A DNA stretch of 64,000 bases, taken from Pseudofabraea citricarpa. Taxonomy: Eukaryota; Ascomycota; Leotiomycetes; Helotiales; Dermateaceae. Below the pieces are notes generated by a model. That model was given only the letters and a program-made list of their open reading frames with translations, was not told where the DNA came from and searched no databases. The position numbers and the translations under genes were made by a program. Shown here in pieces: positions 624 through 8,760 of the stretch. The stretch lies in contig JAPWGK010000002.1 in assembly GCA_029641185.1 (NCBI GenBank), positions 1,364,001-1,428,000 of the forward strand. Direction: 5' to 3'. Numbering within the stretch: position 1 is the stretch's first letter; each line of letters begins with the position of its first letter.

Positions 624-1857
624 TTACCATGCTCCTGACTCTTGCTTTCTGATTGCTTCAGACTTTGAATGATTGAGAGTTTTCATCATAAACTCGTATG
701 TGAGCATGGTAGTGGTCGCTGCTGGTACAGCTCTCATCATATTAACCCCCATACCAGTGTAAAACGCTCGCCAACCCTCTTCTTTGAGGATGGTTTGGAA
801 AGTAGTCACAATACCTCTATATCGTGGCAGTGATGCTTTCGCCTGTGCAACCACAGCTGCTGTTCGGCCAGAACCTGAACCTTCCAGTCCACCTCTGAAT
901 GCTGCATACTCGGCTGATGCCGAAGGGAGCGATCTTTGTTGTGTTTGGAGTCTTGTTCTGATCACTTCGTGGGGATATGTCGCAGAGCTTGCAATAATCT
1001 TGCTCAACACGCTCGCTGACAAGGTACCGAACCAGTGAAAAGTCGTGTCACCATCTGCGGTTGCTCCCATACCTTGGCCTGTGAACTCCCTCTTTAAATA
1101 TTCGTATGCTGGAAACTGTACAGCGACGTGGGTCAACCCGAGTAGCGCTGGAGTAAGGCCCGAATAAAATGACAGGACTCCTTCATTCATGTACATCTTC
1201 CGTGCTGCATCAAAGGTCGACCGGTAGTGCCATGGTGGTCGAGCATCATTGTTGGTCGCTTTCCGACTGACTTGTGACATTAATCGAGTCTTTATCACCC
1301 ATATGGGGTTCGTGACCATAGTTGACGAGCCGCCAGCAACGATCGAAGAATAAAAGTTGACCAGGTTAGGGTTGGCTTCACAACATGTCAGTGGAGATCC
1401 TCTTCGCTATATACGCTAGCTTAAGCATACCTTCATATTGTGAAAAGAGCCCCTTCGCTTTCCCATAGACCGTAAACCAAACCGCCCACGTAGGAAGGTA
1501 TCCGAGAATAATCGGCCCCAACCCTCTGTACATACCCTTTAAGCCTTCCTCACGTAGGATAACCCGGGCCGTACCTAGCATGCCCGAATATACCACATGT
1601 TGTCCCGGGCCCGCCGTTGCTCTAAACCCTCCTTGTGCTTGTAGTTTTGTCTTGATCACATCCAGCGGGCATGTGATAATCCCAGAAGTGAAGCCTCCCG
1701 CAGCACCTGCCAGTGCATTGAACGTCGAATCCGATCTCCCCACGCAGAATCTCTCCAAGGCCGTAAGTGGAATGTCGTCTCTCGCGAAAGCCGAGGAGCC
1801 TGGTGAGAATTGTTGGGTGGGTGAGGATGACGATGGCGTGCTGCGTTCGTGCGACAT
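624..1857 (-). CDS. YIA6: Mitochondrial carrier, NAD+/nucleotide transporter type (Yia6/Ndt1-like)
   Basis: Inner-membrane solute carrier of the SLC25 family, probably importing NAD+ or a related nucleotide into mitochondria. Exons are 1431-1857 and 624-1375; the 55-bp intron has GTATGC and a CAG-type acceptor region (TGAAG). The protein is 392 aa. All three family repeats carry the PX[DE]XX[KR] signature or its known variant: PLDVIKTKL, PIWVIKTRL, PHEVIRTRL. The Trp in the second signature is typical of the NAD+/FAD/pyrimidine-nucleotide branch (Yia6, Flx1, Rim2), which is why I favour a nucleotide substrate; the exact one is inferred. An upstream in-frame ATG at 2010 would add 51 residues with an Arg-rich start. 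I chose 1857 because MSHERSTPSSS resembles the usual cytosolic Ser-rich leader, but the longer form is possible. The gene is divergent from QCR7. Confidence 0.9.
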
Positions 1858-3349: not shown

Positions 3350-4288
3350 AGGACGTTCAAGGGGGATGTGTATATTTGAAGGGTGGAGAGGAAGAGACTG
3401 AAGAAGATGCTGACCTGTACTGTATAACGTTTGGTGGTCGAATCGAGAATCGAGAGTCGAGAAGTCATATGGTGTTTATGTTTATGGAAGTGACAGTTCT
3501 GTCGACCGGACGATTCGTCCAGCCTAGTATGGTTGTTTGTAACGGAACCAATGCTACTGGGGAATACACAAGCAATACCACCAGCCAGAGATCATATCAG
3601 CCTTTGTAACGACACAGATGCCGACAGCACTAATCAGATTAAGTTGCGACAACTTGAGAATCTTTAAATTTCCTGTGGCAACGTGTATATATCTAAATAC
3701 CAAGGAAGATCATAGCTTGAAGACCAAACAGCTACCCAGTTGGCTACATACACCATCCTCGACTATTGGATTTCTTCGTGAGCTACACTTTGGGGTGTTC
3801 AACCTTGTATCTGGATTTCATTCTACATCTAATGTCTCTTGGCAGATCTCCACCAAAAACATTCCAGCCAATAAGAAGCTCTCCATATCCAAGCTCTCAC
3901 GGACAGAAATGCAAGGACATTTTTATTAAAAAGAGGTTGTTGTTTCTCTGCTCTTGCTCAAATATATTGGGCTAGTACTGCGTAGAATATACTCTATTTA
4001 TTACCTTGTTTTCAATGAGTATAACATTTGATATGCCAAAGTTTCCTTGAACGTGTCTGAACAACTTATGTTAACTTACTCCTTGAGCCACTCACTATAT
4101 TGAGTGCTTATATTATATCGAGCAAGAGATAAATCTCACATTCATACTAGTACACCTACAGGTGTTAGTAGTTACACAGGTAGGATATACGAGGAGCCAT
4201 TGTCCAGAGAAGCCCTCACAAGCTACCAACACAGCCAGGCAGACTTAGCAGAGAAACAAATATGTTACCATTCACCCCTTACTCCTCA
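3350..4288. other. Intergenic between QCR7 and the repeat array
   Basis: No gene recognised. The region is moderately AT-rich. The QCR7 3' UTR should occupy its first part. From about 4130 onward the sequence (for example ACCTACAGGTG at 4154-4164) begins to resemble the flanks of the array that follows. Confidence 0.4.
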
Positions 4289-4856
4289 GTCCGTCATGCA
4301 ACGAAATTTCTCCTGTATCCAGCTCTATCACTTATCTTGTGTTTATTGCCCTTCCTCTTATCTATATGATGGGTGGATAAGGGTCCGTCATGCAACGAAA
4401 TATCTTTTACATTCAGCTCTATTACTTGCCTGATGGTTAATAACCTTTCTCTTATCTGATGAGAGACAGGTGATAAGGGTCCGTCACGCAACGGAACTCA
4501 AGTTTTATAAGTTACCAATATAGGAATGTTTACATAGTCACTTGTCACACCATTCACTTATCACATATCAGTTCGTCATGCAACGAAATCTTAGTTCTAC
4601 CCAGATCTTCTTCTATCTGTCCCATAAGATAAAGACTTGTCTTTATCTTTCCCTCTCTTATCTTCTGATAAGAGTCCGTCATGCAACGAGACTCAAGCTA
4701 CTAACATAGGAAGGTCTATAGAGTTACTTATCACTATTCACTTATTACATGCCAGTTCGTCATGCAACGAAATCTTTCCTATGATAAAGATCTCTTTCTC
4801 TCTCTTATCTGTTGATAAGAGTCCGTTATGCAACGAAATCTTTCCCAGCATAAAGG

Positions 4857-4900
<44 letters not shown>

Positions 4901-6241
4901 CTGTTGATGAGAGTCCGTCATGCAACGAAATCTTTCCCAGCATAAAGGTATGTCTCTCTCTCTCTCTTATCTGTTGATAAGAGTCCGTCATGCAACGGCA
5001 TTATCATCAATCAGATGTTGGATAGTATCTGGGCAAATATTATCAAAATTCACATGATCTAGATATCCGTCACGCAACGAAACCAGCTTCAACTTCGAGC
5101 AGTTTTGTTCTCTCTTGAATAATCTGGTGATATAACCCTAACCCTTAAAGGTCCGTTGTGCAACGAAACCAGCTCTAGCCATGACCTCTCTTGAAGAAAT
5201 TTCATAACTTACCCCTTAAAAGTCCGTTGTGCAACGAAACAGGTCTTGCTTTTGGGTAGCTCAACTAATCAATCCCTTCAAAGGCTCTCAAGAATTCACC
5301 CCCTTAAAAGTCCGTCACGCAACGAAACTGTTCTTATGCGGATCTTCTCTGTATATTAGTCAGATAACTAGTAGGTGGTAGTGTCTCCTGTGATTCACTT
5401 CTTGAAAGTCCGTCATGCAACGAGATGGAATATTATACTAAGTAGCTAAATTTGGATCTCTTCTTAAAGGACTAACTATATCCTCCTCTCTTATAAGTTA
5501 CCCCTTAAATGTCCGTTATGCAACGAAATATAACTTTATCTCTGAACTTATCTCTGCCCTCTACTATTTACCAGATCTCTCAATTCACTCCTGAAAAGTC
5601 CGTCACGCAACGAATTATATAACAAGTGCCTGAACTGCTTAGCTATAGCTTAAACCCCTCTTGTAAGCTGGTTCTCCAAGGTCCGTCATGCAACGAAATA
5701 TAGCTCTAGCCTCTTCCCTTATGGTTTAGCCCTTAAAAGTCCGTCACGCAACGAATTATATAATAAATGACTGAACTTACAAGAGAGGTTTGGAGTACAA
5801 CCCCTTAAAAGTCCGTCACGCAACGAATTATATAATAAATGACAGAACTACTCAGCTGCAGTCTGAAGCTCCCCTATGATTCACCCCTGAAGCTCCGTCA
5901 CGCAACGAATTATATAATAATTGACTGAACTTACAAGAGAGGTTTGGAGTACAACCCCTTAAAAGTCCGTCATGCAACGAATCATAGTAACTAGCTATAC
6001 TGACCAGCTATACTCTAAACCCCTCCTATGATTTACCCCTTAAAAGTCCGTCACGCAACGAATTATACAATAAGTGACTGAACTACAAAGCGATACTCCA
6101 GCCCTCTCTTGCAATCCACAAGAGAAGTTTGGAGTATAACCCCTGAAAGGTCCGTCACGCAACGAATCATAATAGCTAGCTAAGCTGAACTCCAAACTCC
6201 TCCTATGATTCACCCCTTAAAAGTCCGTCACGCAACGAAAC
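4289..6241 (+). repeat. Interspersed tandem array of 24 conserved ~18-bp cores, undescribed type
   Basis: Twenty-four copies of a core close to GTCCGTYRYGCAACGAA lie in one orientation. Starts: 4289, 4383, 4479, 4571, 4674, 4755, 4821, 4913, 4983, 5065, 5151, 5222, 5310, 5408, 5511, 5598, 5681, 5739, 5811, 5893, 5965, 6046, 6150, 6223. All 24 match CGTYRYGCAACG exactly. Spacing is 58-104 bp, mean about 84, not in multiples of three. Inter-core DNA falls in two families. On the left (to about 5000) cores 2, 3, 5, 7 and 9 follow a CTTATC...GATAAG inverted repeat by one or two bases, and core 8 has GATGAG. On the right most cores are preceded by CCCCTTAAAA and several are followed by an AATTATATAATAA block. 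No gene is visible inside. It differs from a simple satellite because the core is far better kept than the rest. Its function is unknown. It is not a CRISPR array (eukaryotic context, related spacers). Confidence 0.93.
4859..4966 (+). repeat. Two (TC)n microsatellites inside the array
   Basis: A TC run at about 4859-4897 and a shorter one at about 4952-4967 sit at the same place within consecutive array units, between GGTATG and the CTTATC arm. The units around them are near copies, so the length difference shows expansion or contraction of the dinucleotide after unit duplication. Confidence 0.9.
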
Positions 6242-7314
6242 ATGCAGATCTACATATTGATTCTCTCAGTAAAGAAAGCCTTCACTTCCTACAGGTGTCC
6301 ACAGACACCAACTGCAATGCAGCGGAATGGCTTTACAAGTAAGTACAATGACCTACTCAGTTATCTATGGGAATAATTCTGACAAGTCTGTAACACAACA
6401 AACTCGTTATTTATCCATCTGGCCCCACAGGTTTTTGTCTATCAAGTCACTTATAAGAGAAGACTCGACCCTCTTAGAGCACAGCAATCAAATAAGCATA
6501 GCAAGTATAGCAAGCAAGAAAAGTGTGTCAAGTGTAAGCGTAAGTGTAAGTGTAAAAAAATATGTATGTATACGCCTCCCCTTCCCCTTCCCCTTCCTCA
6601 GTCAATCAAACTACGATCCTGTCATCATCCATCCTATATTAGATTTATAGCCCTCCTCACTGCTGCTCGCTCCTTCCTCCTGGCTTGCTCTTCTTCGCCC
6701 TCGATTGACTGATCCACATCCACATAAATACATATACACACTCTCCTTCCCTCCCGCCATCTCTCCTCTTTCCCATCAGAAAGCCCCAACTAAGAACCAA
6801 CACACAACACACATGACATATCGTATAATATCCATACCTACAGACCTGACCGGAAAAGAACGCAGCAGACTAAACAAAAAAGAAAACAAATTGAAGCCAA
6901 CAGAAAACCAACGACAGGAGGAGCAAGGGATGAGAGAGTTACACAAGTTCGCATTCTATTACAAAGGGACAATGTAAGATTTCCACCATTCCCTAATTCT
7001 TTGTCCATGAAGAGAGTTTTTTTTCCCGCGCAAGTTTTCATAGTTGAAGTGTTTGCGTGCTTCAATTCAGGGTGTCCCCTTTGTTTTCCCTCATGATGAA
7101 ACCAACCCAAGACACACACACTTTCATAAAAAAACAAAGAGAACTCCTGGCAATCCACCCAGAGGAAAATTCAGAAAGAAAAACAACAATGATTGAAGAG
7201 GATGTATGACTTCTTTCATCGATATTGCTTCCTGAGTCCCCAAAAACGTCTGTTGCACTAAACTCCGTATATGCGTGAAAACATGGTTGATGGCCTGGTT
7301 GGTTATGGTTGCAT
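6242..7314. other. Intergenic between the array and the GT62 gene 3' end
   Basis: Just after the last core there is a perfect inverted repeat GGTGTC-CACA-GACACC at 6294-6309, then CAATGCAGCGGAAT at about 6316-6329, which looks like a decayed core. An AAGTGT/AAGCGT run is at about 6527-6555 and a CCTTCC run at about 6578-6597. The stretch next to 7315 should be the GT62 gene's 3' UTR. No gene recognised. Confidence 0.5.
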
Positions 7315-8760
7315 CTATGCATTACCAGGCTTCTCATCGGTATCTATGTGCCATACCACGTAGTTGGGTAGGCCAATGACTTCGTATCCGGCTCGTTTGG
7401 CCATCTTTGCGAATCCCTCGGTTTCTGCTTGGTTTTCGAAAGCGTAGGCAGGGAAATTAATTCCTATCAATTTATTAGCGTTGGAATTTGCAACCTCCTT
7501 GAACAAATCTTACCTGATCTGTGGACATCGGCCTTGACAACAATATTTACTCCGCCAATACCATCGAGCTTGACTTCCTCGTCTTTGTTTAGACGCCAAT
7601 CACCCATCTTTGCCATATATGTACGGCCGGTCTGGAATTCCTTGTAGCCTAGTTAAACTGTTAGTTTCCGAAATAGCATTATGGATCATGATGTACTAAC
7701 CTTCAACAATGACGGTGTCCTTATCGAGAGAAGATGCCAGGCGGAGAGCCTTGTCCGATTCAATCCATGAGTTGTAGTCGAATCTACCCTCAATATCTCT
7801 TCCATCCTTGTAGCGATGGAACCAAACGTCTACGAAAGTCAGCAAAGGGAAACATAATGAAGATTTGGATTCGCATACTTGGAACAATGATGTCCTTATC
7901 GTGGGCGATAAAGTCCTCGAGGATTTTCCGGGGGCTGTCGACGATATCTGAGTCACGCCAGTACACCCAAGAGTGTTCTGGTTTCAACGCAGCTGTGAGG
8001 AGATAATTGCGTGCTCGGGCCATGAGCTTCCGTCTGGGAGCTTGGGCTGCGAAACCATGTCGTTCTTCAACACTCTGCCCAGTAACAACACCGAAATCCT
8101 TCTCAATAATCAGAGCACTGTTAAAGGGGACGGAGTCTTGCTGCCTTTGTATTCTATCAAGCTCGGCCGCAAGGACGGCGAGGGTATCATCTGTTGAGTC
8201 GCCAACCAAAAAGCCAAGGTCAATGAGGTGATGAGGATATGTCAATTCGGATAGGAGGTCGAAATATTTGGGAAGATATGGAGCAGCGTCTCGCAGGGGA
8301 GTCAAAATCAGGATGCGTTCCTCGTTCGCAACCGCTTTCGTGGTTGATCGAATGGGGTTGAGATCCACCCTTTTAATGGTAGATGAGTTCACGACCAGAG
8401 GCTCGTGATGGTTGAAGATGACAGGCGTCTGTAGGTGCGCTGTCCAGTCGGCCTGCTCATTCAAAGTCATCTGCATCGGCGGTTTCGAAGGCCCCCAGCA
8501 ATAAAACCTGTCGCCATCGTGTCAATCATCAGTTGCTTCAGACCATGTTGAGGGTGCGAGTATGGATAGGAGATTGCTGCTGCTGACCTTTGCATCTCCC
8601 CTGCGGATGTGCTGATTCCTCTCCATAACAATAATACAATCCCAGCGAGGGCTACACACAACAAGAATCGCGTTCTAGTCACGAACACCCATATCGCTCT
8701 CGTGGGCGGCAGATTGGCCTTTGCAGACTTCCACGTAACGCCGCCTTTAGGGAGAAGCAT
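7315..8760 (-). CDS. ANP1: GT62 alpha-1,6-mannosyltransferase, Golgi mannan polymerase subunit (Anp1/Van1/Mnn9 family)
   Basis: Type II Golgi membrane protein that extends the mannan backbone on N-glycans as part of a mannan polymerase complex. Five exons on minus: 8588-8760, 7879-8507, 7701-7829, 7514-7648, 7315-7463, giving 404 aa. The N-terminus (MLLPKGGVTWKSAK) is followed by a single membrane anchor (about residues 30-47, FLLCVALAGIVLLLW). The catalytic part starts after FYCWGPSKPP, with ILTPLRDAAPYLPKYFD, the GDSTDD segment, and the acidic motif YWRDSD, a DXD-type metal/nucleotide site. I start at 8760 because the residues just upstream do not look like a leader and the MLLPKGG start is what I remember for Anp1-type proteins. 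Which of the three paralogues it is (Anp1 preferred) is a judgement from memory. Confidence 0.94.

Follow-up and report, generated by a model that had tools for sequence, protein, structure and literature searches.

The array of short conserved cores in the window (the whole stretch of DNA analysed, 64,000 nucleotides in length) was found to be one member of a genome-wide family, whose two boxes persist despite turnover of the DNA in between by local duplication and point mutation. In this family, CpG has been lost specifically across the arrays and for about 200 bp past their ends. Two core CpGs are spared, and the loss is slight or missing in three arrays with few boxes. It is very likely that the arrays are a selected multi-site DNA-binding platform. 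Given such a platform, the balance tilts somewhat toward a role in starting CpG-methylated chromatin, where I infer from patterns in the DNA that there is a binder, methylation, and some benefit. The combined reading, that the arrays are protein-binding platforms that bring in CpG methylation and silent chromatin, is given a probability of about one half.

The array in the window

As shown in Table 1, the array consists of units in a single orientation. The exact sequence CGTYRYGCAACG occurs 24 times, always on the plus strand, with the first copy at 4292 and the last at 6226-6237. The spacing of the cores is 58-104 bp, and the mean is (6226-4292)/23 = 84 bp. Dinucleotide shuffles gave a mean of 0.01 matches to CGTYRYGCAACG with a maximum of 1. 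Thus, the same-strand array of 24 cores with a mean period of about 84 bp, which had been noticed in a preliminary description, is real. The same description placed the array between a respiratory gene and a glycosyltransferase gene. As a correction, the left neighbour that was tested encodes a mitochondrial carrier, and the right one a glycosyltransferase of the Anp1 family. In one spacer of the array, the dinucleotide TC is repeated 18.5 times without a mismatch (4861-4897). Among named relatives, a protein encoded in the window is nearest to those of Phlyctema vagabunda (83% identity) and Coleophoma crateriformis (73%), by which the genome is placed in Helotiales.

Table 1. Features of the array and its neighbours (positions in the window)
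Feature	Position	Strand	Score or match
Whole array, 24 units with a 21-bp core each, mean spacing 84 bp	4287..6241	+	
Core 1	4287..4307	+	33.6 bits
Core 2	4381..4401	+	
Core 3	4477..4497	+	
Core 4	4569..4589	+	
Core 5	4672..4692	+	
Core 6	4753..4773	+	
Core 7	4819..4839	+	
Core 8	4911..4931	+	
Core 9	4981..5001	+	
Core 10	5063..5083	+	
Core 11	5149..5169	+	
Core 12	5220..5240	+	
Core 13	5308..5328	+	
Core 14	5406..5426	+	
Core 15	5509..5529	+	
Core 16	5596..5616	+	
Core 17	5679..5699	+	
Core 18	5737..5757	+	
Core 19	5809..5829	+	
Core 20	5891..5911	+	
Core 21	5963..5983	+	
Core 22	6044..6064	+	
Core 23	6148..6168	+	
Core 24	6221..6241	+	
Decayed 25th core copy	6384..6404	+	15.0 bits
Second box ATTCAC, 5′ of core 1	4270..4275	+	
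Second box ATTCAC, 5′ of core 4	4552..4557	+	
Second box ATTCAC, 5′ of core 6	4736..4741	+	
Second box ATTCAC, 5′ of core 10	5048..5053	+	
Second box ATTCAC, 5′ of core 13	5294..5299	+	
Second box ATTCAC, 5′ of core 14	5393..5398	+	
Second box ATTCAC, 5′ of core 16	5583..5588	+	
Second box ATTCAC, 5′ of core 20	5879..5884	+	
Second box ATTCAC, 5′ of core 24	6208..6213	+	
Left neighbour, mitochondrial carrier exon	627..1406	-	PF00153, E 1.6e-44
Right neighbour, Anp1-family glycosyltransferase exon	7793..8521	-	PF03452, E 1.1e-67

A genome-wide family of arrays

A genome search for similar arrays had been suggested in the preliminary description, and it revealed a family. In the 44-Mb assembly, the exact 12-mer was found 378 times (194 + 184), as against 31 times (17 + 14) for the reversed pattern. 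In split genome searches, the exact 12-mers were grouped in at least about 30 clusters, and thus the statement that the array has no known counterpart does not hold within this genome. I analysed 27 clusters (the window, L031-L050, and L051-L056), which contain 331 of the 378 exact copies; the clusters near C23:766k, C39:2123k, and C42:649k are outside all counts. An iterated weight matrix gave 468 copies in the 27 loci and one match in 538 kb of reversed sequence. The scored copies number 3 to 55 per locus, where L034 consists of two copies close together and one weak distant match. The arrays are roughly 0.3-4 kb in length and intergenic, with several per contig on many contigs.

The typical distance between units is about 50-110 bp, and only three of the 431 spacings between same-strand neighbours (relaxed set) are shorter than 50 bp. 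Helical phasing of the spacings was not found above chance. Strand changes within blocks are rare (8 flips among 431 neighbours), and L039 and L049 contain inverted blocks. At the end of the L037 array (5302-5355), there are two tail-to-tail cores whose starts are 28 bp apart, and the inverted core has its own inverted box. Outside this genome, the 17-mer was found in 27 prokaryotic stretches with one match each and no arrays, where about 60 matches in 257 billion bases are estimated by chance, and the 18-mer had no match in viral contigs.

Constraint on the core

The core consensus ARGTCCGTCAYGCAACGAAAT is asymmetric and 20-21 bp in length, which is longer than the 12-18 bp first estimated. 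In 260 exact copies, conservation covers roughly positions -5 to +15 relative to the 12-mer, and there is next to no information beyond. At core positions 0-2 and 6-13, the base is kept in 91-99% of 442-468 copies (loci with at least five copies, leaving out the tested position and its neighbours), and the departures at these positions are mostly C-to-T or G-to-A.

The spacers behave differently. In 434 alignable unit pairs, grouped into classes of spacer identity from 0.95+ down to 0.60, the spacer mismatch rises from 0.02 to 0.32, whereas the mismatch of the invariant core stays at 0.02-0.07. The whole unit thus does not decay evenly as in a plain satellite, except in the 26 closest unit pairs (spacer identity of at least 0.95), in which the core mismatch of 0.045 exceeds the spacer mismatch of 0.020 and which were picked by spacer likeness. 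Over all copies, the invariant-core mismatch is 0.092 for copies of one array and 0.085 for copies of different arrays. Since these values are alike, the core is held to one genome-wide standard and not homogenised array by array. The unequal divergence of core and spacer supports the earlier idea of selection, or of a sequence-specific process, at the core. The multi-site protein-binding platform proposed with it also gains from the kept cores and from the many similar arrays.

One array departs from this standard. In L050 (4470-5047), six of the seven copies have a common variant core of the GTCCGACATGCAACAAAA type, with no second box and a normal CpG level, and this array is a natural control for the family. 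L032 has a partial array-specific core variant.

A second box 5′ of the core

Word counts in the spacers revealed a second conserved element, GTGAAT, together with its reverse complement ATTCAC. Of 465 copies, 238 have the exact box in the 25 bp on the 5′ side of the core, as compared to 1.2% and 0.5% for the two words in shuffles (1.7% together). Its distance to the core is nearly always 1-12 bp, and only four cases start within the first 20 bp 3′ of the core. When one mismatch is allowed, the box is found at 319 of 467 copies versus 80 in shuffles. Thus, the core was correctly described as kept, while the spacers do not drift freely as had been thought, since many units of the family have this box. 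The second box and the CpG loss described below are new relative to the preliminary description.

The orientation of the box is mostly constant inside an array and varies among arrays. The ATTCAC arrays include L037, L038, L040, L043, and that of the window, where 9 of the 24 units have the exact box; the GTGAAT arrays include L035, L039, L047, L048, L051, and L055; and L044, L049, and L054 are mixed. Seven small or weak loci (L032, L033, L034, L041, L042, L046, and L050) have no or one box. Among the 228 copies lacking the exact box, degenerate AGTGA words are enriched, as are CTTATCTG words in about 4-6 arrays. In L037 and between 4620 and 4990 of the window, CTTATCTG/TGATAA words are found at some units in place of the GTGAAT box, and they are possibly an alternative upstream box.

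Since the box is used in either orientation, it is argued that double-stranded DNA is the working form. This bears on the processed RNA raised earlier as another possibility. In that case, the arrays would be a processed transcript or a set of small RNA genes, and the core would be a motif for guiding or processing the RNA. The layout of a conserved core with variable spacers would suit it, and it is shared with prokaryotic CRISPR arrays, which have a conserved repeat and unlike spacers. However, an RNA does not readily account for a box in either orientation or for blocks inverted inside two arrays. No Rfam match was found between 3600 and 7000 of the window at E up to 1 or in seven loci at the gathering score, and ARAGORN (bacterial code setting) found no tRNAs. 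The spacers in the window array match their own genome outside that array only once, in a 99-bp stretch (74%) of the C16 array. An RNA origin is therefore barely plausible. A CRISPR-like origin was rejected because, within its own genome, the window array matches only itself and those 99 bp; unlike CRISPR spacers, the spacers here are locally duplicated, vary in length, and have a second box inside.

Turnover of the spacers

Neighbouring spacers are alike: among 284 adjacent pairs, 16% score at least 20, a score reached by none in shuffles. Among spacers more than three units apart, 1.8% of 2796 pairs reach this score, and between arrays none of 2246 sampled pairs does. The arrays thus grow by local duplication.

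Such head-to-tail growth is what would be expected of a functionless dispersed minisatellite library, whose units spread and whose local turnover keeps the core alike while the spacers drift. The array-specific cores of L050 and, partly, of L032 also fit this explanation, as do the 26 most similar pairs, in which the core is kept no better than the spacer. On the other hand, the core mismatch is similar whether the copies come from one array or from two, it stays flat as the spacers diverge, and the arrays have no spacer likeness to each other in the sampled pairs. Moreover, turnover cannot account for a second box in two orientations or for CpGs kept mainly in the cores. A functionless minisatellite is consequently considered improbable, and a platform of selected binding sites is preferred.

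A CpG-specific loss in and near the arrays

In the spacers of 24 arrays with at least five copies, 195 CpGs were observed versus 709 expected (0.28), as compared to 0.75-0.76 in noncoding 100-bp windows of the same loci with a GC content of 0.30-0.45. The two outer CpGs of the core are kept in 89% of cases, and a third possible core CpG (position 5) is TG in 72% of the copies. In the flanks of 12 large arrays, the CpG ratio starts at 0.43 (first 100 bp) and 0.41 (second 100 bp) and reaches 0.68-0.88 farther out, at 200-600 bp. The depletion is specific to CpG and limited to the element, as would be the case for an island of CpG-methylated chromatin.

The depletion varies with the presence of the box. 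The CpG ratio is 0.13 in units with a box and 0.42 in those without, or 0.32 if L050, L042, and L041 are left out. In these three arrays, the depletion is weak or absent: L050 (variant cores, no box) has a ratio of 1.26, L042 (no box) 0.83, and L041 (sparse, with a box in one of eight copies) 0.67. Values of 0.57 for L036 and 0.44 for L052 are intermediate despite boxes in about 60% of copies, and L032 is off the pattern, with 0.25 and no box in six copies. The array-level correlations are weak, with a rho of -0.49 (p 0.016) for the box fraction and -0.41 (p 0.049) for the intact core, both uncorrected.

RIP and RIP-directed methylation of repeats, as treated in PMC13297926, resemble the present case in that repeat DNA has lost C-containing pairs and gained TpA. 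In the array spacers, one of the two RIP indices is raised (TA/AT of 1.06 versus 0.70-0.73), while CA (1.11) and TG (1.07) are near normal and the substrate index is 1.19. A 1.4-kb retroelement stretch of the same genome gave 0.02 for CA, 0.00 for TG, and 0.40 for CpG, where the array spacers have a CpG ratio of 0.20 in the same comparison. Thus, the retroelement has lost nearly all CpA and TpG, whereas the spacers retain them and have lost CpG. The measured retroelement stretch has a GC content of 0.17. The genome has 50 reverse-transcriptase matches, of which 49 have internal stops, nearly all TAA or TAG, and these copies (e.g., L085) look strongly RIPed. Since the two patterns are opposite, the arrays seem to have escaped RIP and undergone something else. 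The arrays as a RIP-mutated repeat or a transposon relic were rejected, because TpA alone is raised and the loss of CpA and TpG is absent.

The arrays may also be the remnant of a transposon system, in which the boxes are transposase-binding subterminal repeats or the units are stacked MITEs. Subterminal motif arrays are known in some plant DNA transposons, and the present arrays are dispersed, lie on both strands, and include two with inverted blocks. However, 20 ORFs flanking 13 of 21 loci contain no transposon domain according to Pfam and are ordinary genes or unmatched (17 matched a family and 3 none), the sampled spacers of different arrays are unlike apart from the 99-bp exception, and CpA and TpG are not lost although the retroelement of this genome is strongly RIPed. 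A search of the genome for DDE_1 (pogo transposase) gave no match, a result that is not proof of absence. A transposon remnant is therefore very improbable. Likewise, no sign was found that the array is a fragment of a known transposon or satellite, which would have spoken against the preliminary description: there was no transposon domain in the 20 flanking ORFs, no Rfam family in the window stretch and seven loci, and no other genomic copy of the spacers.

Two further observations speak against methylation. In recent duplicates, CG changed to TG or CA in 10 of 63 cases, GC to AC or GT in 33 of 244, and CC to TC or CT in 60 of 263, and CpG changed in 21 of 110 cases in a larger duplicate set; this comparison, with small numbers, non-independent pairs, and surviving CpGs that may be the protected ones, does not support an ongoing fast CpG decay. 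In the spacers of arrays with at least 12 copies, A5 and T5 runs occur at 0.73 and 0.44 per kb versus 2.75 and 2.34 in matched noncoding DNA, about 4-5 times more rarely, and this shortage is unaccounted for by CpG methylation.

A possible mechanism

Each array is best explained as a platform between genes on which proteins bind composite sites, with 2 to 55 sites per locus. Each unit would be a ARGTCCGTCAYGCAACGAAAT site, about half of them with an exact GTGAAT box in either orientation 1-12 bp 5′ of it. A sequence-specific DNA-binding protein, or a pair of them, would load at many such sites and might recruit a CpG methyltransferase and silent chromatin. Each array would thereby become a small intergenic island of methylation, in most cases not at divergent promoters, which may serve in separating neighbouring genes, pairing, cohesion, or silencing.

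A wider claim is more tentative. The arrays may represent DNA-encoded starts of CpG methylation in an ascomycete, in which about 30 two-box arrays recruit the methyltransferase independently of RIP and transposons and form small methylated islands between genes, and selection preserves the boxes in the face of the mutation pressure that they cause; I regard this as less probable than its opposite. The targeting of methylation in fungi is mostly explained by transposons and RIP (PMC13297926). If the wider claim is true, sequence-defined islands outside transposons would be a directly testable code, with intact and box-poor arrays (L050, L042, and L041) in one genome. Whatever the role, some 470 constrained two-box copies indicate a DNA-binding protein and a chromosome element that have yet to be described. 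In the open-licence literature, going by titles and the opening lines of abstracts, no description of the motif, of fungal arrays built in this way, or of CpG islands started by a motif in ascomycetes was found; judging by titles, the core strings occur there in other contexts only.

Similar systems

The arrays have partial likenesses to known systems. In alpha satellite DNA, the CENP-B box (TTCG-N4-A-N2-CGGG) is a short site for protein binding that persists while the repeats around it evolve fast. Read as its reverse complement, the core includes TTTCGTTG, which is like the first half of the CENP-B box. By eye on the consensus, TTCG and the A fit, but the end of the box is off by one base, and so the core does not match the CENP-B box. 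Further, the present arrays are about 0.3-4 kb and intergenic, whereas alpha satellite is megabase-sized and centromeric. The pairing centres of Caenorhabditis elegans have motif arrays bound by the HIM-8/ZIM zinc fingers, and they resemble the present arrays in that a short conserved motif is clustered at scattered places within variable DNA. The differences are a two-box site of about 30 bp, the spread over many contigs, and the CpG loss. At the disiRNA loci of Neurospora, DNA methylation occurs at convergent transcription, as described in PMC3764098. Methylation, inferred in the present case, would be linked in both to convergent genes outside transposons. The trigger there is convergent transcription, while here it would be a repeated motif, and nearly half of the arrays sit between tandem genes.

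Genomic setting and candidate proteins

The gaps that hold arrays lie between convergent genes in 12 of 21 cases versus 6 of 41 controls (Fisher p 0.0009) and between divergent genes in 1 of 21 versus 10 of 41, by rough orientation calls from a rough hexamer gene finder. With other thresholds, the convergent gaps number 12 of 21 versus 10 of 54 (p 0.002) or 11 of 21 versus 6 of 35 (p 0.008), and the class of L040 and L044 shifts with the threshold or with weaker exons. The window was scored as convergent via a doubtful plus exon at 1607-1810. Since the Pfam-supported carrier gene is on the minus strand, its gap is likelier to be tandem, and 11 of 20 array gaps are convergent without the window.

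The excess between convergent genes would also suit the same selected platform with a mechanical job, such as homologue pairing, cohesin loading, fork arrest, or intergenic transcription termination, with the CpG loss as a by-product or separately caused. The spread of the site arrays over many contigs and the near lack of spacings below 50 bp, which fits a bulky bound complex, are consistent with this. In contrast, the spacings show no helical phasing, and the CpG loss would need a cause of its own. A purely mechanical role is thus rather unlikely, and a platform that brings in CpG methylation is preferred here.

Candidate proteins for this preferred reading were found in the genome. There are nine DNA-methylase matches in six places. 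One of them (C12:185099) is on the same strand as a SNF2 match (C12:181355), and the two share a listed open frame of 1969 aa. According to the review PMC13297926, the fusion of methylase and SNF2 identifies DNMT5, an enzyme that maintains CpG methylation. This review also describes DNMT5 as mainly a basidiomycete enzyme and attributes the methylation in Verticillium mostly to DIM-2. Thus, C12:181355-185473 is apparently a DNMT5-type gene with its domains in one frame, and its product could be the maintainer of CpG methylation at the arrays.

HTH_Tnp_Tc5 domains, the CENP-B-type HTH, were found in four places in the genome. The protein encoded around C11:359133-359324 is a candidate binder. 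This domain (L084) lies in a serine- and proline-rich reading frame.
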